A stretch of 64,000 nt of DNA, taken from positions 48,244 to 112,243 of the forward strand of contig MHAY01000013.1 in NCBI GenBank assembly GCA_001804705.1. The letters are read 5' to 3'. Shown piece by piece: positions 14,840-60,773 of the stretch (its first letter is position 1; each line of letters starts with the position of its first letter). Both the position numbers and the translations under genes were made by a program. The notes under the pieces are model-generated. The model saw only the letters and a list, made by a program, of their open reading frames with translations. It made no database searches and had not been told where the DNA came from. This stretch comes from Ignavibacteria bacterium RIFOXYC2_FULL_35_21. Its GTDB lineage: Bacteria; Bacteroidota; Ignavibacteria; Kapaibacteriales; UBA2268.

Positions 14840-17056
14840 TTATCTTGAAATCACAAAAGGATGGACACCAGAATTTAAGCCGCTTTCAATTCTAAGGTAA
14901 TAAAAACCTGTAATATAATTTGATACATTTAAATTTATTCCATTTAGAGAATCGTTGGCATCAAATAAATTTGAGCTGAGTTTCTCGCCTAAAGAATTGA
15001 AAATTGAAATCTTAATTTTATTTGGAATATCTTTGAATGAGATATAAAGTATATCGCTTACGGGATTCGGGTACAATTCAATTTTCAATGGTTCACCATT
15101 GGTTACAGCACCAATAATCGTATAAAGTTCAACATTATTATTTACGGTTGAATTATCATCAATTAATTCCACATTTGTATTATAAGTATAATACCCAACT
15201 TTATCGGCAAAAATTTTATATTTACCTGCTTTCATACTCCGCATTTCATATCGTCCCAAATCATCGGTAAAAGTAAAATTTCTGACATTCGAGTTTTGGT
15301 CGAGTGCGAAAACAAGAGCTCCTGCTATTGGGTCACCTTCCTTGAGTACTTGTGAGCTAACCATAAATGTTTCGCCCTGGGTAATAACTCCGCTTATGAT
15401 ACCTCTCCCGCTTTCATGAACAGGAAGATTTGGCACTTTAATAAATATTTCTTCTTTGATTGTTGTATCACCAATTTCAATCTTGGTAGCATCCCTCCAT
15501 GTTCTGATAACAGGATTATTTAACAAATAATATCCCGGTATTTTTCTTGAATTGGATGAAGTAAAGACCATTAATATATATTTCCCTGTTAGAAGACTCT
15601 CAAATTTGAAATTACCTGAGTTATCAGTCACTGCGTTCCGGCTGACATAACGCATATTCTGCATTGTATCCGGAGAGACTCTGAATGCTATAACATTTAT
15701 TTCTTTAATTTTGTTACCTTCATTATCTTTTACAACACCGGAAAGTTTGTTTGAAAATGTAGGTTTTTCTTTTAATACAAAGTCAATATGTTCTCTATTA
15801 CTATTTAACTCTATAATTGTAGCTTCTGAGGTATTATCTGCTTTATCATAAAACTGAGCTAAATAGTTCTGCCATGATGAAACGGTTGCTATATAATTTG
15901 AATTGCCTTCTAATCTAATCTCATAGTTCCCTTCTTCGTCAGTTATCATACCTTTTTTAGTCTCTTCAGACTGATTATTTCTGCCAACAAAATGAACAGG
16001 AACAAATGGGACTGGTGCTCCATCGCTTTCTCTTGTAACTTTTCCGCTTAACTTATAGGTTTCAATTGGAATATATTTATCAACTTTTGCCTCAACTTTG
16101 ATTTCATCTCCGCATTTAACTTCAATTCGCTTCGCTTCTGCTAATAAATAAGCATCCTCATACCATTCGGGAATAATTTTTTCACCTTCGAAACGAAGTA
16201 AATATACCCCTTCATCAACATCCATGCTGAACTCACCATTTGTAAATTGGAATGTTGATAATAATACAGGTTCGTTCTGAGGTGCACCAATTTGTTTATA
16301 TACTTTAACTAATCCTGATTCTACAAATTCACCCCCAGGATATTCTATAATACCTGACAGTGTTGTATGTCTTTTACAACTTTTGACGTTTATATACCAA
16401 AGTTTAAGATTAAAGAGGTTAGGATGGTTTATAGATATTGCTTTTATAATAACTTTATATACACCCTTTTCTGTTGGAAGCCAGTTCAATTCACCATTAG
16501 TATGAATAATACTCATTCCGTCAGGAGCTTCTGCTATCTCATACTTCAACATATCACCATTTGAAGCAACGGCATTTGCATCGTAATAATAATTTTCACC
16601 GACAAAGCCAACTGTGTCTGGGTTGGACGTAAATTCAATTCTCGGTGGATTTTCACCAATGGTTTGAAATACTATGTTGGAACGTTCACTTTCCCCGTAT
16701 TGATTATAAGCAGTTATAAAAAATGAATATTTCCCCTTATTTTTCAGATAAACATTAACAAAGTGATAACCCTCATTATCCTTTTTTAAAGAATCATTTC
16801 GATTAACTGTTTTTAGTAGTTGAAATTCAGATATTTCTTCTGTTTCACCATTAGCATAGTAAATTTTGAAACCGTCAATAGATGCTCCACCCGAGGTAAC
16901 TTTCCATTTGAATAAACCATAGTTGCCGCTTGGATTCGTCACAATGAAATTAGATGGAGGTTTGGGCTTTTCTTCCTTGCTATATAAATTGACTATACAG
17001 CAAAACATAAAGAAAAACACTAATAATATTTTGTATTTAATAGGATTACTTTTCAT
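14840..17056 (-). CDS. Secreted multidomain protein with carboxypeptidase-regulatory-like repeats and T9SS sorting domain
   Basis: A 738-residue exported protein. A signal peptide (ILLVFFFMFCCIVNLYS) is followed by a fibronectin-III-like domain (about 38-130), a putative cadherin/Ig-like domain (about 135-225, DGMSIIHTNGELNWLPTEKG), then several CarboxypepD_reg-like beta modules (YKLSGKVTRESDGAPVPFVP, NKLSGVVKDNEGNK, ISGVITQG). The last ~80 residues form a type IX secretion sorting domain (YPNPVSDILYISF ... GFYYLRIESG). It is therefore probably carried across the outer membrane and displayed or released. No enzymatic domain is visible. It is divergent from the ECF sigma gene, and its upstream region carries the GCAAC-N17-GTTA element. 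Confidence 0.85.
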   Translation of the reverse strand: MKSNPIKYKILLVFFFMFCCIVNLYSKEEKPKPPSNFIVTNPSGNYGLFKWKVTSGGASIDGFKIYYANGETEEISEFQLLKTVNRNDSLKKDNEGYHFVNVYLKNKGKYSFFITAYNQYGESERSNIVFQTIGENPPRIEFTSNPDTVGFVGENYYYDANAVASNGDMLKYEIAEAPDGMSIIHTNGELNWLPTEKGVYKVIIKAISINHPNLFNLKLWYINVKSCKRHTTLSGIIEYPGGEFVESGLVKVYKQIGAPQNEPVLLSTFQFTNGEFSMDVDEGVYLLRFEGEKIIPEWYEDAYLLAEAKRIEVKCGDEIKVEAKVDKYIPIETYKLSGKVTRESDGAPVPFVPVHFVGRNNQSEETKKGMITDEEGNYEIRLEGNSNYIATVSSWQNYLAQFYDKADNTSEATIIELNSNREHIDFVLKEKPTFSNKLSGVVKDNEGNKIKEINVIAFRVSPDTMQNMRYVSRNAVTDNSGNFKFESLLTGKYILMVFTSSNSRKIPGYYLLNNPVIRTWRDATKIEIGDTTIKEEIFIKVPNLPVHESGRGIISGVITQGETFMVSSQVLKEGDPIAGALVFALDQNSNVRNFTFTDDLGRYEMRSMKAGKYKIFADKVGYYTYNTNVELIDDNSTVNNNVELYTIIGAVTNGEPLKIELYPNPVSDILYISFKDIPNKIKISIFNSLGEKLSSNLFDANDSLNGINLNVSNYITGFYYLRIESGLNSGVHPFVISR

Positions 17057-17136: not shown

Positions 17137-17172
17137 TACAAATAACACAGTAATTATAAATTAGTTGCAAAA
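17137..17172 (-). promoter_or_regulatory. Putative promoter of the T9SS-protein gene (GCAAC-N17-GTTA type)
   Basis: On the minus strand TTTTGCAAC is followed, 14 bases later, by TGTGTTATTTGTA. The same two blocks with the same spacing precede the Spy-like lipoprotein gene at 35.5 kb. It can be read as an ECF-type -35/-10 (GCAAC, N17, GTTA) or as a weak Bacteroidota housekeeping promoter (TTTG ... TTATTTG). It lies about 80 bp before the T9SS-protein start. Confidence 0.5.
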
Positions 17173-17199
17173 ATATTTAATTTTTTTTTAACAATTTCT

Positions 17200-17231
17200 G
17201 CATCTTTTTTTAAATTTATGTGTTAATATAG
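17200..17231 (+). promoter_or_regulatory. Putative promoter of the ECF sigma gene
   Basis: GCATC, 14 bases, then TGTGTTAATATAG: the same spacing as the two strong copies of the element (GCAAC-N14-TGTGTTA), with one change in the -35-like block. It ends about 18 bp before the TTG start of the sigma gene. Placement before the sigma gene itself would fit autoregulation, which is inference. Confidence 0.4.
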
Positions 17232-17248
17232 TTAATAAGTTAAATACT

Positions 17249-17824
17249 TTGGACGAAATGAGGCATAATTTTTCGACATATACCGACGAAAAGCTTGTGT
17301 TTCTTCTCCGCAGTGATAAGCGGGAAGAATCCGAAATCGCTTTTACTGAAGTATATAACAGGTACTCATCCAAGGTTCATGCTTACTGTTTAAGGATTTT
17401 AAATAACAATGAACAGGCTGAGGATATATTTCAGGAAGTGTTTATTCGGTTTTTTCAGAAGATAAAATCGAATTATCCCGATACAAATGTTCCGGGTTAT
17501 TTAATTAAAATTGCAAGAAATTTATGTTTGAACTATAAAAGAGATAAAGTTAATACAATTAGCATTCAGGAGAATGATGTTTATTTTGAACCGGGAAAAT
17601 CCTTTGAAAACTCGGAACTTTTGGATTTAATCACGACAGCTCTTGAACTGCTGGACTTTGAATATAAGGAAGCATTTGTCATGAGGGAATACGATGGTTT
17701 ATCTTATAATGAGATTGCTGAAGTAACAAATACGACAGTTACAAATGCAAAATCCCGTGTTTTCAGGGCAAAGCAAAAAATTAAAGAAATATTACAGCCA
17801 TATTTAAAGGATATGGCAAGTTAA
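17249..17824 (+). CDS. RNA polymerase ECF sigma factor (sigma-70 family)
   Basis: A 191-residue two-domain sigma factor. Region 2 holds AEDIFQEVFIRFFQK and the region-4 helix-turn-helix is AFVMREYDGLSYNEIAEVTNTTVTNAKSRVFRAKQKIKE. Region 3 is absent, as in ECF sigmas. The track start is TTG; an ATG three codons later (17258) is equally possible and no clear Shine-Dalgarno decides. It is 36 bp upstream of the anti-sigma-like/barrel protein, which is the expected position for its regulator, and divergent from the T9SS protein gene. Confidence 0.93.
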   Translation: MDEMRHNFSTYTDEKLVFLLRSDKREESEIAFTEVYNRYSSKVHAYCLRILNNNEQAEDIFQEVFIRFFQKIKSNYPDTNVPGYLIKIARNLCLNYKRDKVNTISIQENDVYFEPGKSFENSELLDLITTALELLDFEYKEAFVMREYDGLSYNEIAEVTNTTVTNAKSRVFRAKQKIKEILQPYLKDMAS

Positions 17825-17860: not shown

Positions 17861-19066
17861 ATGGATAACACAAAGCTTATACACGATTTTATGGACGGAA
17901 GTCTCGATGGGACTCAGGAAGAACAAATGTTCTACCAGTTCTCATCAAATGAGGAACTTCGTGCTGAATTGAAACAGCAAATTGCCATCAGGGAAGCAAT
18001 CCGAAATGATTCGAGGGCTTATACTCCTGCGGCTAATTCAACTGTCGGAGTGTTTGCGGCTCTTGGTTTCAATCCTCCATCTACTCTTGCAGTAACAGGT
18101 TCATCTGTTGCCAATGGTGGTATGATTGGACTCCTGACTAAATACAGGCAAGGATTAATCGGAGGAACAATTTCCGTTGTTGCCACAGCGGCTTTATTCC
18201 TGTTGCTGATGAATCCTTTCGGGAGTTCAGGTACAAATTTATCTGATTCGGGAAAATCTTCAATGGCACAATCACATGCCATTCCAGGTAATGTGCCAAA
18301 AGTTGAAAGCTTTAGCAATGATGCTCAAAAGCCACAGGTCAGGTATATTACAAAAATCAGATATATAGATGTCCCGAGGTATATTGCTCAAGAGCCTGTT
18401 CAAACTGTGCAGGAAAGCACAAGTTCAATTACTTCTGCCGAAGAATCTGACAATTTAGATTTGACTTCTTCTAATTTGGGAATTACTCTTTCACCGAGAC
18501 TGGATATGAGTTATAAAACAAATGGATTTTCCGATTTAGGCATGGGAAATACTTCTAACAAATTCAATAATCTGATTTTACCAGGTGAACAAATAGGTTT
18601 GTCTATTGAAGTTCGAGGTTCACAATATTGGAATTTTGATAATGAAACAATTCATCCGTTTAAGTATTCAAAATTCAACAATACGGCTGCAGCTCTTTAT
18701 TATAACTTATCAGATAATTTTGCTGTCGGTGGCGAAGTAAGGCAGGAAAATTTCTTCCAAAAATTTACAAGTCCGGCTCAGGACACAACTTACCAGCAGC
18801 AGCCAAACTTTACTTCTTTCGGATTAAACATAAGATACACATTGCCTTATGAGTTATGGGGATTTGAACCTATTATGCAATTAAATGTAGGAGCCAATAA
18901 TGCTGGTCCTACTGGTAGAATTATGCCAGGTTTTAAATATACTCCCTATCGTGATATAACATTTATCCTTGGAGGTGAGCTTAGCGGACTAAGATATCAT
19001 CATAAAAATGAACCATTCTATTCATATAAATTTGGTTTGAATTATGGTGTTATGGTTAATTTTTAA
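17861..19066 (+). CDS. Anti-sigma-like N-terminus fused through one TM helix to a beta-barrel-like C-terminus
   Basis: A 401-residue protein with unusual order. Residues 1-90 are soluble and begin MDNTKLIHDFMDGSLDGTQEE, like the cytoplasmic heads of anti-sigma factors but without the zinc-finger HxxxC. A hydrophobic helix spans about 99-119 (LIGGTISVVATAALFLLLM). Residues 120-200 are a low-complexity linker. Residues ~205-401 alternate as amphipathic strands (LSIEVRGSQYWNF, AAALYYNLSDNFAVGGEVR, FGLNYGVMVNF) and end in phenylalanine, as outer-membrane barrels do. The gene follows the ECF sigma gene and precedes a lipoprotein. Function as a one-piece envelope sensor controlling the sigma factor is inferred. 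The barrel-like part could instead be a periplasmic beta-sandwich. Confidence 0.7.
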   Translation: MDNTKLIHDFMDGSLDGTQEEQMFYQFSSNEELRAELKQQIAIREAIRNDSRAYTPAANSTVGVFAALGFNPPSTLAVTGSSVANGGMIGLLTKYRQGLIGGTISVVATAALFLLLMNPFGSSGTNLSDSGKSSMAQSHAIPGNVPKVESFSNDAQKPQVRYITKIRYIDVPRYIAQEPVQTVQESTSSITSAEESDNLDLTSSNLGITLSPRLDMSYKTNGFSDLGMGNTSNKFNNLILPGEQIGLSIEVRGSQYWNFDNETIHPFKYSKFNNTAAALYYNLSDNFAVGGEVRQENFFQKFTSPAQDTTYQQQPNFTSFGLNIRYTLPYELWGFEPIMQLNVGANNAGPTGRIMPGFKYTPYRDITFILGGELSGLRYHHKNEPFYSYKFGLNYGVMVNF

Positions 19067-19106: not shown

Positions 19107-19745
19107 TTGAAGTACATAATAACATTATCTCTGTTAATTATTACAGTCATTATTCTCAATTCATGCAATGATTCGCTTGGAATTGAGAGGAATGTTATTA
19201 TTACTACAATTGATACCAACGGCAATGATACAACCGGAAAAGACACAATACAAAAAATTCCTGCGTCTATTGATTCATTTGAATTTCATGAAGAATTTTT
19301 AATGGATGGTATTTCTTATGAGTTTCCAATTAATGAACAGGTAACTTTTCAGGAAGCTTTTGTGGATACCTCAAGAGATCCGATTTATGTTTGGGTGAGG
19401 CTTAATATTATAAATAAATATGGGGACGATAGATACCAGGCTATTGGTAGGAAAGAATACACACAATCAATAAGGTTTACTGCAGACTCTCTCCAGGGAG
19501 TTGGGCCCTTTAAACTTATCGGTTCACCCAACAGCGGCTATTGGTCAGAACTTGGAGTAAGAAATATTGATAAGAAGGATAGTACATTTCTTTCGGGTTC
19601 ACAATCAAATTTTGATATACAGTTTCGTTCGGATTTTAAAAATCATCAAATAACAGCAATAACTTATGCAAAAATACCTAATCCTGCAGAACCTGATAAT
19701 CCAACTTATGTGACAGGTAATTTTATAATAAAATATCCAAAATAA
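19107..19745 (+). CDS. Putative lipoprotein of the sigma operon
   Basis: A 212-residue protein with a lipoprotein signal peptide ending in LNSC (Cys at about 20), so it is probably anchored in the membrane facing the periplasm or outer leaflet. The remainder is polar and beta-rich with an acidic Asn/Thr-rich linker (DTNGNDTTGKDTI) after the lipidated cysteine. The start codon is TTG. I do not recognise a family. It lies 40 bp after the anti-sigma/barrel gene and likely ends the three-gene operon; a hairpin follows its stop. Confidence 0.75.
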   Translation: MKYIITLSLLIITVIILNSCNDSLGIERNVIITTIDTNGNDTTGKDTIQKIPASIDSFEFHEEFLMDGISYEFPINEQVTFQEAFVDTSRDPIYVWVRLNIINKYGDDRYQAIGRKEYTQSIRFTADSLQGVGPFKLIGSPNSGYWSELGVRNIDKKDSTFLSGSQSNFDIQFRSDFKNHQITAITYAKIPNPAEPDNPTYVTGNFIIKYPK

Positions 19746-27358: not shown

Positions 27359-27943
27359 TTACACCAAAATATTGATTTCTTCTTTTAATAATTTTTTCAA
27401 AATAATAAACAATTTCTTTCTGGAACGATATAGAATCACTTTTATGTTTGACCTGCTCAAACCTGTGATTTCACTTATTTCTCCTACTGACATACCATCG
27501 AGGTAGAACAATGTCAATAGTAAACTTTCATTCTCATCTAACTTATCGAGTGCTATATCTATATATTTTCTCTGCTCTTCGGCTTCGAGAGAGTTCAATG
27601 AACTATTTACAAAATCAGGCTCTTCGTTTTCAATGTATTCATCATCAATTCTCTCTGTCTTAATTTCCGTCTTACGCTTCCGCAGTTTCGATATGGCTGT
27701 CGTATATGCAATTCGATAAAGCCATGTCGAAAAACTCGCCTTTCCGTTGTAATCATTCATGCAAGAATAAACCTTTATAAAAGTATCCTGAGCCGACTCT
27801 TCTGCATCCTCCCTGTTTCGCAGAATCCGAATAGAAACAGAAAACACCATCTGCTTGTATTTATTGACAACAAAAGCAAAGGCATTTTTATCTCCTTTCA
27901 GAATCTTCTGAATATATATGTTATCGGAAGCTCCATCTTTCAT
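27359..27943 (-). CDS. RNA polymerase ECF sigma factor (sigma-70 family)
   Basis: A 194-residue sigma factor. Region 2: FAFVVNKYKQMVFSVSIRIL and AEESAQDTFIKVY; the region 2.4 area is FSTWLYRIAYTTAISKLRKRK. Region 4: LLTLFYLDGMSVGEISEITGLSRSNIKVILYRSRKKL. It heads a minus-strand operon with the two-TM protein and the DUF3108 protein. It differs clearly from the 17.2-kb sigma, so the window has two ECF systems. Confidence 0.93.
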   Translation of the reverse strand: MKDGASDNIYIQKILKGDKNAFAFVVNKYKQMVFSVSIRILRNREDAEESAQDTFIKVYSCMNDYNGKASFSTWLYRIAYTTAISKLRKRKTEIKTERIDDEYIENEEPDFVNSSLNSLEAEEQRKYIDIALDKLDENESLLLTLFYLDGMSVGEISEITGLSRSNIKVILYRSRKKLFIILKKLLKEEINILV

Positions 27944-28064
27944 AAATCATTTGACGTAACAAAAGGGAAAGTGGTTACAACAATTTTCAAATTATTTGTA
28001 ACCACATTTCAATTTTCTGCGTCAAACGGGAAGTTGAATTATTGAATTTTTAAGGAGTTTTGTA

Positions 28065-29181: not shown

Positions 29182-29343
29182 AGGCTCTTATTTATTATTT
29201 ATAACCCCTGAATTATTCTTGTAAAATTCTTAAAATTAGACAAGAATAAATATATTTTTAGATAAAACTAACATTATGACATAAATAATTAAAAAATATT
29301 TTATTAAAATCAAAATTTATTATTCATATTCCTATATTCTCAT

Positions 29344-29374
29344 GCAACTAAGTTCTTAATTTTTCGTATTATAG
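29344..29374 (+). promoter_or_regulatory. Putative promoter of the envelope-export operon
   Basis: GCAAC, 17 bases, GTATTATAG. The spacing equals that of the sigma/T9SS/Spy elements (GCAAC-N17-GTTA), though the -10-like block differs and is closer to TATAAT. It lies 44 bp before the barrel gene start. Confidence 0.4.
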
Positions 29375-34712: not shown

Positions 34713-35426
34713 TTATTCATTCCCGCATTTTATTTCGGGTAAACTATCTCTCCAACTCGTCCAGATTTCTAATTGTTCAGTTGACAGAAGAAGAGCTTCA
34801 ATACCATCCAACAGAGTTTTTGTGCAATCTTTTATTGCAAGACAAACTTCGACTCTTACCGGATTATTTTTTAATTCTTCTCTTGTGCTCTGAGCTAATT
34901 CCTGCAATGCTGCTTTCAACTGCTCTCTTGTCCAGCCTTCTTCTTTTGCCTGTTGCATTATGGTTCTTCTTTCCTGGTTTGCAGACTGAAGTATAGCTCT
35001 TTCAGATTCACGAAGCCTTTGCATAGCAGTTCTTACACAATCCATGTGTTCCCTGAGCAATAATTTGACAGCATCAATCTGTTCTTGTGTCAAATCAAGC
35101 TTACGCAATATCATTCCAAGATGTAGCCTTTGACCTCTGCCGTTACGCATGTCGCCGAACCTACCACCATCACGGCCATCCCTGCTGCCATTCCAACCCA
35201 TGAATTGACAATCCTCATTGGAATATCCGGTTGGTGGTAACATCATAAATTCAGACGTTTCGGATGCGTCCTGAATGTCACTCGGTGTGTTATCTGTTAC
35301 GGGCAATTGAAATTCGGTTGAACTAAACATATCATTTGTTGGGCCTGTTGATTTTTGACATGAGCTCATTGTCATAAACAATCCGACAACAAACAATGAT
35401 AACATTAATACACTTAATCTTTTCAT
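34713..35426 (-). CDS. Spy/CpxP-like periplasmic lipoprotein
   Basis: A 237-residue lipoprotein (lipobox MSSC near residue 23). After an acidic linker and a glycine/arginine-rich segment (GWNGSRDGRDGGRFGDMRNGRGQ), the C-terminal ~130 residues are helical with LDLTQEQIDAVKLLLREHMD and repeated charged heptads (ESERAILQSANQERRTIMQQAKEEGWT), like Spy/CpxP/heavy-metal-resistance proteins that act as periplasmic chaperones or stress sensors. Its upstream region has the strong GCAAC-N17-GTTA element shared with the T9SS gene beside the ECF sigma. Confidence 0.8.
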   Translation of the reverse strand: MKRLSVLMLSLFVVGLFMTMSSCQKSTGPTNDMFSSTEFQLPVTDNTPSDIQDASETSEFMMLPPTGYSNEDCQFMGWNGSRDGRDGGRFGDMRNGRGQRLHLGMILRKLDLTQEQIDAVKLLLREHMDCVRTAMQRLRESERAILQSANQERRTIMQQAKEEGWTREQLKAALQELAQSTREELKNNPVRVEVCLAIKDCTKTLLDGIEALLLSTEQLEIWTSWRDSLPEIKCGNE

Positions 35427-35783
35427 ATTACTTCTCCAAAAAAAGTATTTAATAAAAAAATAATTTTTAACTTTGATTCTTTGACACCCAATATCGTTTT
35501 TTGGTTTAAAATTATTTTGAGCATCATGCTTTTATTACAAATAACACAAAATATCTAAAATGGTTGCAAAATTTTTTACAGAAGAATAAAATTAATTAAT
35601 AACTGTTGAAATTGTGTTCATTTTTTAAGTTGTATTGTTAACACATTATTAGGTCTAATGTCTTAGCAAATATTAATTTAATAATGATAAATTTATTACA
35701 ATTCTTTAATTAAAAATAATTTACTTAATATCGCAACGTCAGAATTAATGTAATTTTTGTTAGTTTCTAAATGAGGAAATAAA
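35427..35783. other. 357-bp intergenic region between divergent lipoprotein genes
   Basis: AT-rich DNA holding the promoter of the Spy-like gene (described separately) and presumably that of the next lipoprotein gene; GCAAC at about 35750 on the plus strand lacks a good -10 block at N17. No reading frame worth calling was seen. Confidence 0.6.
35536..35571 (-). promoter_or_regulatory. Putative promoter of the Spy-like gene (GCAAC-N17-GTTA type)
   Basis: On the minus strand TTTTGCAAC, 14 bases, TGTGTTATTTGTA; both blocks and the spacing are identical to those upstream of the T9SS gene at 17.1 kb (22 of 22 block positions). It lies 110 bp before the start codon. Confidence 0.55.
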
Positions 35784-37529: not shown

Positions 37530-38798
37530 CTATCTTTTCACATCAATCTTGCTCAAAAGTATCAAGTTTTTTGGGTCTGAATAATCATACTGAAATAATC
37601 CATCACTTCCTATCATAATAGCGATTTTTCCAAGTGGAATAATGTCATAAGTCTGAATATCGCTCTGCCAGTTTAGCAATTCTATATTCATTGGGTCTTT
37701 TACATCAAACACCTTCAACCCGGCTTTGCCGTCACAAATGAATAGTGTAGTTCCGTCAATACCTACTCCAGCAGGTTCCTGCATCGGGTATGATTTCAAC
37801 AGAATTGGTTTCATCAAATTTGTTATATCAAGTATATCAAGCTGATTCAGATTACCTGCACAGCTTGTACCTGTCCGCAAAGTAACATAAGCATATTTAT
37901 CTTCTGCAACCACGGGGTCACAGCCTCTTGCATGTGAGAACTGCCCAAGGTAAGTTGGGTTCCACGGTGTTGAAGCATCATATATAAACATTCCGGTTTG
38001 GGAACCTATGAACAACTTGTCTCTGAACGGGAAAATAGTCTCAATGTTCCAGCCGATATTAACTTTGTTCCAGGGTCTCGGATTTTCAGGTATTGATATG
38101 TCAATTGATTGCAGATTAGACCTGTCAACGACATATAGATAATTTAAATAAGTTGTGAACCGTGCCATAGAACCGCCCTTCCCGCTTGAACCACCAATAT
38201 TACCAACATCAATCGGGCCACCATTATAATCTAGGCCGCTACTCTTCCATCCATCCATAGGTGAAACAACATAGTCGTTCCCGTCAACTTCATAAGTTAT
38301 AGTTGTATCTCTTACATCCCACCTAATCAAAATCCCTTTTTCCGGGTCAATATACGAACCTTCAAGGTCAAGGGGATTTGGAAAAATGTCTTTAACCCTT
38401 TTCACAATTGTCGGATTGAGAGGGTCTTTGATGTCAATTGCCACAAGGTCAATGTAACTGTCAGCATAAAGAATACCGTCTCTCACGGCAATATCGCCAT
38501 TACCCGGTATTTCAATAAAAGATATAGGATTAGGTGAAGCAGGATTACCGTCATCAATAATATGAACACCTTGTCCGCTTTCGCAAATGAACAGGTACTT
38601 CCCGAAAATGTAAATTTTACCGGGTCTTTCAAGTTCTCGGGCAGAAGTGGTTTTCACACCGTTTCTGAACTCTTCTATGCTCTGGTAAACCGGAGTATAG
38701 ACCTTAGTCTTATAGCTGATGGTTTTAGTTGTATAACAGCCGCTAAGTAAAATAATTGTAAAAAGGGTAACAAACGAGAGCAGAACTTTGTTTCTCAT
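37530..38798 (-). CDS. LVIVD-repeat beta-propeller lipoprotein
   Basis: A surface or periplasmic lipoprotein of about 422 residues. I move the start from the track position (38840) to the ATG at 38798, because AAAGGAG lies just upstream and the product then begins with a clean lipoprotein signal (MRNKVLLSFVTLFTIILLSGC). Repeats of the LVIVD type follow: IYIFGKYLFICESGQGVHIIDDGNPASP, IDLVAIDIKDPLNPTIV, LNQLDILDITNLMKPILL, GLKVFDVKDPMNIELL. These predict a beta-propeller, usually a protein- or ligand-binding surface domain. No enzymatic residues are evident. Confidence 0.87.
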   Translation of the reverse strand: MRNKVLLSFVTLFTIILLSGCYTTKTISYKTKVYTPVYQSIEEFRNGVKTTSARELERPGKIYIFGKYLFICESGQGVHIIDDGNPASPNPISFIEIPGNGDIAVRDGILYADSYIDLVAIDIKDPLNPTIVKRVKDIFPNPLDLEGSYIDPEKGILIRWDVRDTTITYEVDGNDYVVSPMDGWKSSGLDYNGGPIDVGNIGGSSGKGGSMARFTTYLNYLYVVDRSNLQSIDISIPENPRPWNKVNIGWNIETIFPFRDKLFIGSQTGMFIYDASTPWNPTYLGQFSHARGCDPVVAEDKYAYVTLRTGTSCAGNLNQLDILDITNLMKPILLKSYPMQEPAGVGIDGTTLFICDGKAGLKVFDVKDPMNIELLNWQSDIQTYDIIPLGKIAIMIGSDGLFQYDYSDPKNLILLSKIDVKR

Positions 38799-38944
38799 AT
38801 CACACACTCCTTTCGGAATTGTTTTACAAAATGTTTCCAATTTTTTGTCAATATATAAATATATAAACCCAAAAAAATGAAAAATGTTTCAGTGAGATAG
38901 AAATTTTTTTATTTATTTCACAAACTAATTCAATTATTAAAATT

Positions 38945-53963: not shown

Positions 53964-54279
53964 TTTATTACCCTCTTTATTAATTCGATTTATTTCCCTT
54001 TTGTTCTTTATACGAGAAAAAATGATTTAGGTTACGTTAATATGAATTTATTACCTCCCCTTATATTCCCCTCCTTAATTTAAGTAGGGGATTCAGGGGT
54101 GGTTTTTTAAAAATTTTTGAGACCTTTTTGTTTCTAAAGTGTCATTAGTATAAATAAAGAGACAAAAATTCAAAAAGTATAAAATTATTCTTAAGTAATT
54201 AATAAGTTTGTAGAACAATAAAAGGAAAAGATGAAAGATTGATACACCTTAGGTGTATAATTATTAGCAGGATAAAAAA
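53964..54279. other. 316-bp intergenic region with GGGG/CCCC repeat and an inverted repeat
   Basis: Contains a CCCCTT...AAGTAGGGGATTCAGGGGTGG segment (about 54055-54105) of the dispersed type also seen at 60.65 kb, then AT-rich DNA and the inverted repeat ATACACC-tta-GGTGTAT. No reading frame was found. Confidence 0.6.
54242..54258. promoter_or_regulatory. Inverted repeat before the CotH genes, candidate operator
   Basis: ATACACC-tta-GGTGTAT: perfect 7-bp arms around three bases, ending 21 bp before the ATG of the first CotH gene. It could be an operator or a 5'-UTR hairpin. Confidence 0.4.
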
Positions 54280-57200
54280 ATGTTTTACAAACTAATATTA
54301 TTATTTGTATTATTAATAATAATAGCAATCCCGGCTCCCAGCCAGAGCCAAATAATAATCAACGAAATAATGTCAACGAGCAATCAATCTGCTTTCGATG
54401 AAGACAATGAATCTTCCGATTGGATTGAACTCTATAACAACAATTCATCACTCGTAAGACTGGAAGGATACAGGATTTCAGACAAAAACAGTTTTTCTGG
54501 TGCCTGGATATTTCCTGATATTTCTTTGAATGAGGGTGAAAAACTATTGATATTTGCTTCTAATAAGAACAGGACATATTCTAATAAATATATTATAGAA
54601 GCAAGCGGAGAAGGAATCAATCCTTATGAATATGATGACGGATTCAGATTCCAGTACCTTAGATTAGACGGTGATTTCGACATACAGATGCGTGTACATT
54701 CATTAAGAAATACCGGTATTTCAGGTTCGGTAGGTTTAATCATGCGGCAAAGTTTAGATGAAAGGAGCAAATTCGCAGGAGTTTTTTGTTATTATCAAGA
54801 GAGTTTTAATTTTATAATAAGAAAGCAGGATGGGACTTATCCTGAACTAACACCAACAATTTTCAATCTCGAATATCCTAACGGATGGGTAAGGTTGAAA
54901 CGGCAGGGAGATTCTGTTTTTGGTTTTACTAAGAATTTGGGTGGGCATTGGTCTGTTATAAAAGTTGATTATTACCCTGCTCCTGACACCATGCTTGTTG
55001 GTATAGCCGTATCATCTTCAGAACAGAACAGGTTAGCTAAAGCTGCAATAACAGATTTAGTATTAAATAACAAACCATTGAATTATAATTCTCTGCAGAT
55101 AGCCGAAATCAATACTGATATTGCAGGAAGGAGTTATTATTCATCAGAATTGCACACTGATTTCAAACTTAGTTCGGAAGGTGAAACTCTATATATATGG
55201 AATCCCCAGGGAGTATTAATAGAATCAATGAGTTTTCCGGCTCTTACATCAGATATTTCTTATGGGAGATATCCTGATGGTAATAGCAACATGGAGTATT
55301 TCTCACCTTCAACACCAGGGGAACAAAACCAAAAAGGTTTTCCCGGTTATACAGAAGAACCGAAATTCAACATTCCGGCGGGATGGTACAATAACCGGTT
55401 ATTATTAAGGTTTGAAAACAATAATCCCGATTTGCAAATCAGATACACAACAGATGGAACTGATGTATCTGAAACATCAAAAATATATAATGATAATAAT
55501 ATAGTAATTGACAGTTCTGTGGTAATCAGGGCAAGAGCATACCGGGAAAATTTATTTCCTTCGAATGAAATCGTCAATACCTATATATTGAATGACAGCA
55601 GTTCGCTGCCTGTAGTATCTTTCGCAATCAGCCCAACATTGCTTTGGAACCCTGATTCAGGCATATTTGATAATGATCACATTTGGCCTGCTCCGGAAAT
55701 TGGCGGAAATTTTGAAATTTTTGATAATCAAAAGAACAGGGTTTTTACAAGTCATTCCGGGTTAAGTGTTCACGGTGGGAATTCCCGTACTTACGCTCAA
55801 AAATCATTAAAGATGGTTGCAAGAGGAAAATATGAATCATCCACTTTCGAGTATCCGTTCTTTGGAGACAATTACCTTGACGAGTTCAATGGAATAATTT
55901 TCAGAAACTCCGGAATAGACTGGCGGGATTCAAAATTAAGAGATGCATTTTGTTCAGTAATTTCCGAACAAATACCCTCACAAAGAATGGCAAAATACCT
56001 ACCTTATGTTTCATTTTTGAATGGCAAATATTGGGGACTTTATGATTTAAGGGAAAAACTCGATGAATTTTATTTAAGTGAGAATTATCATCTGCCTCCT
56101 GAAAGCATTAATCTCATAGACCAGGATGAGTTTATTATGTACGGCAGAATTGATGAATATGATGATATGAAGAGTAAAATATTCAATTCCGATATGTCCA
56201 AAGCCGAATCATATAAAACGATTGACAGTCTGATTGATATTGAGAACCTGATTGATTATCTTTCATTGGAAATCTTCTGTAATAACATGGACTGGCCCTG
56301 GAATAACGTTAAAGTATGGAATTCCGTGAATTATGACGGAAAATGGAGGTGGATGCTTCATGATTTGGACTGGACTTTCGGGTTTATGGGAGCATTGCCA
56401 AGTTTTGATTTAATGATGGATGCGCTGAGACCCGATACTTCGAAATTCACCAGCTTGTTTTTAAAGATACTTGAAAATAACCAAGTCAGGGAAAGATTCA
56501 TTAATAAATTTGCCGATTTGATGAATAGTGTTTTACTTGCAGACAGGTTGAGAACTATTCTCGACAGCCTTGCAGGTGATATTGAGCCTGAAATGCAAAG
56601 ATTTTTTAATAAATGGGGAGATAGTGTTGAGACATATCAAAAATGGCAGGGTAAATTAAGTAACATGAGAATATTTATTAACGAAAGAGCTAGCTGGCAA
56701 AGAGAACATATAGTGAAATTCTTCAGCTTAGAAGGTTCTTCAAAGGTTTCTCTGAATGTAAACATCAAAGGTGCGGGAAAAATAAAAATTAACACACTCA
56801 ATATATCAGCATTCCCTTGGACCGGATTTTATTTTAATAAAATACCCTTTCAAATTCAGGCTATACCGGGTGCAGGATATAAGTTCATAAGCTGGAATAC
56901 TACGCTTTTGTTCAATGACAGTATAGCTCCGGAACAGACGGTCAATTTACAGGGTGAAGCAAGTATTACTGCTAATTTCGATAAAATTGAAGATACTGCG
57001 AACCATGAAATTTGGAACGATAATTTATCGTGCTATCCCAATCCATTTAATGATAAGATAATTATAAAAGTTATAGTAGAAAAAACTCAAAAGGCTGAAA
57101 TAGAAATTCAAAATTTATTAGGTCAAAAGTTAAAGACGATAATAACCGATTTCTTAACGTCGGGCATTAATGAATTTACCTGGGATGGAACTGATGAAAC

Positions 57201-57291
57201 AGGAAATACTGTGAGTAATGGTATTTATTTTTGTATTCTTTCCACTAACCAAAACAAATTAATATATAAGATTATTAAATATTGCAACTAA
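54280..57291 (+). CDS. Secreted CotH-kinase protein with lamin-tail and T9SS domains (1)
   Basis: A 1003-residue exported protein. Signal peptide (ILLFVLLIIIAIPAPSQS), then a lamin-tail domain (INEIMSTSNQSAFDEDNESSDWIELYN) that seems split by an inserted jelly-roll of DUF1349 type (about 120-260, DGFRFQYLRLDGDFDIQMRV) and resumes at ETLYIWNPQGVLIESMSFP. A chitobiase-C-like module (~370-440, IRYTTDGTDVSETSKIYND) leads to the CotH kinase domain (~445-760; LREKLDEFYLSENY, WMLHDLDWTFGF with the DxD-type metal site). Then a bacterial repeat domain and a C-terminal sorting domain (CYPNPFNDKIIIKV). It probably phosphorylates or binds surface proteins after T9SS export. It overlaps or abuts the second CotH gene. 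Confidence 0.88.
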   Translation: MFYKLILLFVLLIIIAIPAPSQSQIIINEIMSTSNQSAFDEDNESSDWIELYNNNSSLVRLEGYRISDKNSFSGAWIFPDISLNEGEKLLIFASNKNRTYSNKYIIEASGEGINPYEYDDGFRFQYLRLDGDFDIQMRVHSLRNTGISGSVGLIMRQSLDERSKFAGVFCYYQESFNFIIRKQDGTYPELTPTIFNLEYPNGWVRLKRQGDSVFGFTKNLGGHWSVIKVDYYPAPDTMLVGIAVSSSEQNRLAKAAITDLVLNNKPLNYNSLQIAEINTDIAGRSYYSSELHTDFKLSSEGETLYIWNPQGVLIESMSFPALTSDISYGRYPDGNSNMEYFSPSTPGEQNQKGFPGYTEEPKFNIPAGWYNNRLLLRFENNNPDLQIRYTTDGTDVSETSKIYNDNNIVIDSSVVIRARAYRENLFPSNEIVNTYILNDSSSLPVVSFAISPTLLWNPDSGIFDNDHIWPAPEIGGNFEIFDNQKNRVFTSHSGLSVHGGNSRTYAQKSLKMVARGKYESSTFEYPFFGDNYLDEFNGIIFRNSGIDWRDSKLRDAFCSVISEQIPSQRMAKYLPYVSFLNGKYWGLYDLREKLDEFYLSENYHLPPESINLIDQDEFIMYGRIDEYDDMKSKIFNSDMSKAESYKTIDSLIDIENLIDYLSLEIFCNNMDWPWNNVKVWNSVNYDGKWRWMLHDLDWTFGFMGALPSFDLMMDALRPDTSKFTSLFLKILENNQVRERFINKFADLMNSVLLADRLRTILDSLAGDIEPEMQRFFNKWGDSVETYQKWQGKLSNMRIFINERASWQREHIVKFFSLEGSSKVSLNVNIKGAGKIKINTLNISAFPWTGFYFNKIPFQIQAIPGAGYKFISWNTTLLFNDSIAPEQTVNLQGEASITANFDKIEDTANHEIWNDNLSCYPNPFNDKIIIKVIVEKTQKAEIEIQNLLGQKLKTIITDFLTSGINEFTWDGTDETGNTVSNGIYFCILSTNQNKLIYKIIKYCN

Positions 57292-60742: not shown

Positions 60743-60773
60743 TTGCAACTATTTTTATAAATTTGCGTAAATG
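60742..60773 (+). promoter_or_regulatory. Possible promoter of the NatAB-like ABC operon
   Basis: TTTGCAAC, 17 bases, GTAAATG, which fits the GCAAC-N17-GT pattern loosely; TAAATTTG (60758-60765) is a perfect Bacteroidota -7 box but lacks a TTTG at the right distance. Start of the gene is about 35 bp further. Confidence 0.3.

Follow-up and report, generated by a model that had tools for sequence, protein, structure and literature searches.

Background

The Das/Dma modules of Bacteroides thetaiotaomicron combine an ECF21 sigma factor with a dual membrane-spanning anti-sigma factor, Dma (PMC13088901). Reo, from the EcfO-Reo pair of Bacteroides and Phocaeicola, has the same domain order as Dma (PMC9308784, PMC13114119). 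Dma/Reo restrains its ECF, and it is thought that outer-membrane stress frees the sigma factor (PMC13088901, PMC9308784, PMC13114119). ECFs of B. thetaiotaomicron have also been linked to non-canonical promoters with a TGTT-type -10, for which ECF recognition was proposed (PMC12596196). In Porphyromonas gingivalis, the PorXY-SigP system controls the T9SS (PMC4800418, PMC8265659).

Here a related arrangement is described from an uncultured lineage. A short element upstream of an ECF sigma factor gene (ECF-A, 17249-17824) is very probably the -35/-10 promoter of that sigma factor, serving its own operon together with surface and secreted-protein genes under a proposed scheme of anti-sigma release, with ECF-B and ECF-C as paralogous modules.

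The ECF-A operon and its predicted anti-sigma factor

The window is the whole 64-kb stretch of DNA analysed. Its source is a 4.15-Mb draft genome (G000), of which about 0.85 Mb (854 kb) of stretches was sampled and the remainder searched by pattern. The ECF-A operon comprises three genes:

17249..17824, + strand: ECF-A sigma factor (regions 2 and 4), start at TTG 17249 or at the conserved ATG 17258
17861..19066, + strand: predicted Dma/Reo-like anti-sigma factor (401 aa; AlphaFold model), conserved across 8 orthologs
19107..19745, + strand: lipoprotein, third gene of the operon, assigned from its sequence

ECF-A is a 191 aa protein that contains regions 2 and 4 only (Pfam Sigma70_r2 2.9e-15, Sigma70_r4_2 1.2e-15) and scores 94.7 bits against NCBIfam TIGR02985, under the cut-off of 126.4. 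Its orthologs in sister genomes are 92-94% identical. At this locus the nearest named relatives are MAGs carrying the label Bacteroidetes/Ignavibacteriae, and 'Candidatus Kapaibacterium' is 51% identical; on this basis G000 would belong to the Kapabacteria/Ignavibacteria side. In the AlphaFold model of the putative anti-sigma factor, cytosolic helices span residues 3-67 and a TM helix residues 89-116; residues 120-245 are a disordered tether and residues 247-400 an 8-strand barrel, which resembles OmpA, NspA and the N-domain of OprF in structure matches of the model. The mean pLDDT is 54; the tether and the TM region score low, and most of the barrel scores ~70-90. As modelled, the domain order of the protein and its placement beside an ECF gene are those of Dma/Reo factors. 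Neither the anti-sigma factor nor the lipoproteins matched a Pfam or NCBIfam family. G000 encodes 19 sigma70_r2 genes and seven ECF/anti-sigma pairs of such shape, and most of the paralogous pairs are flanked or followed by lipoprotein genes. No PorX/PorY-type or por genes were met adjoining ECF-A.

The window holds a second ECF gene (27359-27943, - strand) with a classical ECF-like spelling, TGTAAC..CGTCAAAT, just before its start (upstream ~27944-28000). It is followed downstream by a small two-TM protein unlike the partner of ECF-A.

Probable type A promoters in the window

The element of the ECF-A gene, termed type A, occurs at three places in the window, upstream of the sigma gene itself and of two predicted regulon members:

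17198..17226, + strand: type A autopromoter of the ECF gene, CTGCATC-N14-TGTGTTAA (full element CTGCATCTTTTTTTAAATTTATGTGTTAA)
17142..17170, - strand: type A promoter of the T9SS-cargo gene, -35 TTGCAAC, N14, -10 TGTGTTAT (full element TTGCAACTAATTTATAATTACTGTGTTAT)
35541..35569, - strand: type A promoter of the lipoprotein gene, TTGCAAC-N14-TGTGTTAT (full element TTGCAACCATTTTAGATATTTTGTGTTAT)
14840..17056, - strand: T9SS cargo protein, divergent from ECF-A, with fn3/CarboxypepD_reg repeats and a C-terminal sorting domain; predicted regulon member
34713..35426, - strand: helical lipoprotein with an LTxxQ-like stretch, described from its translation; predicted regulon member

The two minus-strand elements lie 85 bp upstream of the start of 14840..17056 and 114 bp upstream of the start of 34713..35426, respectively. 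When the window was scanned with a PWM whose training excluded all window sites, the two scored 27.5 each and the autopromoter, which departs from the consensus by carrying GCATC in place of GCAAC, scored 19.0. These are the top three scores of the window, and Markov-simulated 64-kb sequences contain a mean of 0.03 sites at a score of at least 18. The preliminary description had claimed paired long elements with N14 spacing before the T9SS protein and the lipoprotein, as well as an element upstream of the ECF sigma gene, and all of these were recovered. It had also placed a fourth site at an export-operon barrel gene (29344-29374); this gene is not a member, as the candidate at 29343-29374 (ATGCAAC..CGTATTAT) scores -4.1 and has no TGTGTTA block. 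The site that follows the top three, at 60743-60771, was likewise rejected (PWM 11.1; ~0.8 sites are expected by chance at a score of at least 10).

The divergent gene product matches Pfam Por_Secre_tail (7.7e-11) and TIGR04183. The lipoprotein at 34713..35426 had been labelled a 'Spy-like' chaperone. It does contain an LTxxQ-type stretch, LDLTQEQ, but no Pfam family was found at E<=0.01 and no Spy among PDB sequence matches, and the label is not retained. With T9SS cargo and lipoproteins as its predicted members, the regulon resembles a programme of surface composition more than a demonstrated response to stress.

Type A sites across the genome

The exact pattern TGCAAC-N14-TGTGTTA has six copies in the genome, compared with one for the reversed control, and all six are sense-oriented and located 34-114 bp upstream of an ATG. 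In five genomes searched with gaps of 4 to 26, a single spacing accounted for 23 of the 34 matches, a bias with a binomial p of about 1e-23 that is inflated, as orthologous sites are not independent. Unsupervised motif discovery, run with several seeds on 453 upstream regions of the 854-kb sample, converges on t.tTG.aaC..tGTGtT.tT in ~19% of the signal-peptide upstreams in the sense direction only. This motif was not recovered from the antisense or cytosolic upstream sets of the sample, and the cytosolic upstreams yielded only low-complexity or terminator-like motifs. A matrix built from genome pattern hits, for which gene class was not known at selection, matched 12/133 held-out signal-peptide genes vs 2/289 cytosolic genes (p=3e-5), the classes coming from signal-peptide and ORF callers that follow simple heuristic rules, and some of the sampled stretches having been picked for holding pattern hits, which shifts the base rate and should not produce a class difference. 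The orientation bias for type A alone is not significant (8 v 3). Two matches precede genes without a signal peptide, an M23-like peptidase and an OPT-like transporter, both named from sequence and not by profile. The type A gene set, which includes these two next to T9SS proteins, lipoproteins and a beta-helix-like protein, is broader than the sets of the sister types B and C described below. Gene functions beyond those supported by Pfam rest on inspection of the sequence.

An alternative already named in the preliminary description is that the element is a housekeeping promoter of the sigma-ABfr type (TTTG / TAnnTTTG), its link to the ECF gene being accidental. Both long elements in the window do carry TTTTG on their upstream side, and their -10 end reads TTATTTG. 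However, TTTG follows GTTAT only at these two window sites and is absent at the other type A sites, the consensus being TTGCAAC..TGTGTTAT and not TAnnTTTG. Type A is moreover depleted before cytosolic genes. Upstream of these genes ATATTTG is the enriched spelling (34 sense v 8 antisense), in line with the TAnnTTTG element of Bacteroidota (PMC7366714). The lack of a conserved TTTG tail and the position of ATATTTG make the housekeeping explanation very unlikely and favour an ECF promoter.

In the G000 sample, the upstreams of cytosolic genes are also strongly enriched on the sense strand in a TACTAAGGTT-like repeat and in TGAAAATTG-type stretches with a 7-bp periodicity.

Probable sister promoter types and T9SS cargo

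Two further promoter types accompany paralogs of ECF-A. Type B, CTGTAACATTTT..TTTGTTATTAC (CTGTAACATTTT-N5-TTTTTTTGTTATTAC), has 27 sites in G000 when <=3 mismatches are allowed, and its reversed control gives none. One site lies 9 bp upstream of the ECF-B gene on contig C7, as it does in three sister species. Only the four genomes that encode ECF-B at >=77% identity have many type B sites (11-27); the others have 0-2. Type C, TTGAGACCTTTT-N8-ATGTGTCATTA, has 35 sites in G000, again with none in the reversed control; one of them heads an operon of lipoprotein, ECF-C and anti-sigma genes on contig C49, and in at least eight genomes type C sites lie ~1.1-1.4 kb upstream of ECF-C genes. The window contains one type C promoter and its downstream gene:

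54117..54147, + strand: type C promoter, assigned to ECF-C (contig C49), TTGAGACCTTTT..AAGTGTCATTA
54280..57291, + strand: T9SS cargo protein of 1003 aa downstream of the type C promoter, with signal peptide and sorting domain (iterated CTD profile)

A weak type B-like site, CTGAAACATTTTTCATTTTTTTGGGTTTATATA, is present at 38860-38892 (- strand) before the signal-peptide gene 37530-38840. Elsewhere in G000, four type C sites cluster within 500 bp of contig C34 (17011-17502); three of these have AAAA after them and no gene nearby, a pattern resembling a promoter region that was duplicated in tandem.

T9SS cargo was recognised by its C-terminal sorting domain, for which an iterated profile was used. 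The domain is encoded by 12/18 signal-peptide genes with an ECF-type promoter vs 23/105 without (p=3e-4). Among full-length signal-peptide genes preceded by type B or C sites the proportion is 33/35 vs 23/105 (p=9e-15); these two types precede T9SS cargo almost exclusively. In G000, G002 and G003, some genes have a type B promoter and a type C promoter arranged in tandem at a distance of 51-55 or 72-74 bp:

Tandem B/C promoters in G000: C3:14897/14950, C10:99635/99688, C27:27364/27436, C81:35820/35894, C83:35807/35880, C96:1463/1391
Tandem B/C promoters in sister genomes: G002 C2, C6 and C25; G003 C2 and C45

These spacings are near 5 and 7 helical turns, which suggests two-input control of some T9SS cargo.

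The orientation of types B and C also bears on the idea that the near-palindromic AAC-N17-GTT is not a promoter at all, with a dimeric regulator using it as its operator. AAC..GTT is an inverted repeat, and the AACA-N15-TGTT dyad is equally common on both strands (in these dyad counts, G/C inverted repeats and the TACTAAGGTT-like repeat dominated before ECF dyads emerged). The outer bases, however, are asymmetric and direction-bound, with signal-peptide genes downstream in 20 v 4 cases for type B and 17 v 1 for type C; the type C spelling TTGAGAC..TGTGTCAT is not palindromic, and no regulator gene is constantly linked to the sites. An operator is thus extremely improbable, and a directional ECF promoter remains the preferred reading.

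Conservation and probable pairing with the sigma factors

The element of the divergent T9SS gene, including the divergent arrangement, is kept in G001, G002, G003 and G015, and orthologs of the lipoprotein promoter are found in G001 (2 copies), G002 and G003 (2 copies). The regulon as a whole, with the ECF, the divergent T9SS protein, the lipoprotein and the beta-helix protein, is conserved in four sister species. Upstream of the ECF-A gene, each of the four species that make up the genus has TGCATC/TGTATC..GTGTTA, as do two other genera, and TGAAAC or TGCAAC variants occur in three more. The genome scan, the enrichment before signal-peptide genes and the comparison of orthologous upstream regions all agree with the earlier proposal of an ECF promoter class common to the sigma gene and to surface and secreted-protein genes.

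With a fixed grammar, an autopromoter was detected for 9/12 ECF-A relatives and 11/12 ECF-B relatives, whereas shuffles lead to an expectation of 0.03-0.04. Two of the three site-less ECF-A relatives (G030 and G038) fall outside the A clade in the ECF tree, and the third, G032, has TTGCACC..TGTGTTAT, a spelling that the regular expression disallowed. Within the A clade, 9/9 members have the site at the same spacing. The motif is common to the sigma gene and its predicted targets at a fixed spacing, the arrangement of an autoregulated ECF. In the tree, types B and C are each confined to one side of a branch, and type A needs one extra change owing to two misassigned rows. Promoter type tracks ECF orthologs, each sister ECF putatively having its own promoter spelling.

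The ECF-A relatives at L203 (G023) and at L041-L043 are preceded by TTGAAAC-N14-AGTGTAAT, where both boxes have apparently shifted together with the sigma factor.

Because the promoters of the ECF gene, the divergent T9SS gene and the lipoprotein gene are all conserved, the case that ECF-A would read the type A element is strong but indirect. The same promoters could in principle be read by one or several other ECFs, such as ECF-B, types A and B then forming one overlapping regulon: the AAC-N17-GTTA core (-35 AAC, -10 GTTA) is common to both, making cross-recognition possible, TTGTAAC hybrids occur, and the genome offers 19 sigma70_r2 genes. Across the genus, however, the subtype in front of each ECF gene stays the same, and type B numbers go with ECF-B orthologs, so that this overlap is unlikely, and ECF-A is preferred as the factor acting on type A.

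Proposed mechanism

It is proposed that the co-transcribed, envelope-spanning anti-sigma factor (17861-19066) restrains ECF-A until a signal from the outer membrane frees it, a proposal that follows from the domain order of Dma/Reo. The signal would probably be a change at the outer membrane, since the tether of the predicted anti-sigma factor joins a cytosolic domain to a barrel presumed to insert in the outer membrane. Once released, ECF-A would transcribe its own operon of sigma factor, anti-sigma factor and lipoprotein, the divergent T9SS-cargo gene, the lipoprotein gene at 34713 and a further ~ten genes in the genome, mostly encoding signal peptides. ECF-B and ECF-C would act as paralogous modules with differently spelled promoters devoted almost wholly to T9SS cargo. 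Under this scheme, transcription would start 5-8 bp past the TGTGTTAT, TTGTTATTAC and TGTGTCATTA blocks.

Comparison with known systems

To our knowledge, the choice and timing of T9SS cargo are poorly known outside Porphyromonas. The sites described here amount to a readable promoter code for T9SS cargo genes in uncultured bacteria, tied to envelope-spanning anti-sigma factors of a kind so far characterised in gut Bacteroides, and they supply natural sets of sigma/promoter pairs for direct tests of specificity. On balance we lean towards the view that this lineage has expanded a Dma-type ECF/anti-sigma module into parallel switches with separate promoter spellings, each choosing T9SS surface cargo, and that some genes combine two of them via tandem promoters 51-74 bp apart.

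ECF-A likely works like Dma/Das, a likeness drawn from domain order. As in Das/Dma and EcfO-Reo, the ECF gene is followed by an anti-sigma factor with a predicted cytosolic domain, TM helix, long disordered tether and C-terminal outer-membrane barrel, and lipoproteins (NigD in Bacteroides) lie near or in the regulon. Unlike those systems, seven pairs are present in the one genome G000, at least three with distinct promoter spellings, and the regulons are dominated by T9SS cargo. PorXY-SigP is similar in that an ECF sigma factor governs T9SS-related genes; there, however, SigP and a two-component system act on secretion machinery genes, whereas here control is predicted to be exerted via a co-encoded envelope-spanning anti-sigma factor and on cargo genes. 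The B. thetaiotaomicron promoters share TGTT at about -10 with the elements described here, but concern other ECF groups (SigW-1, SigH-1) and other targets, and no link to T9SS cargo was made (PMC12596196).
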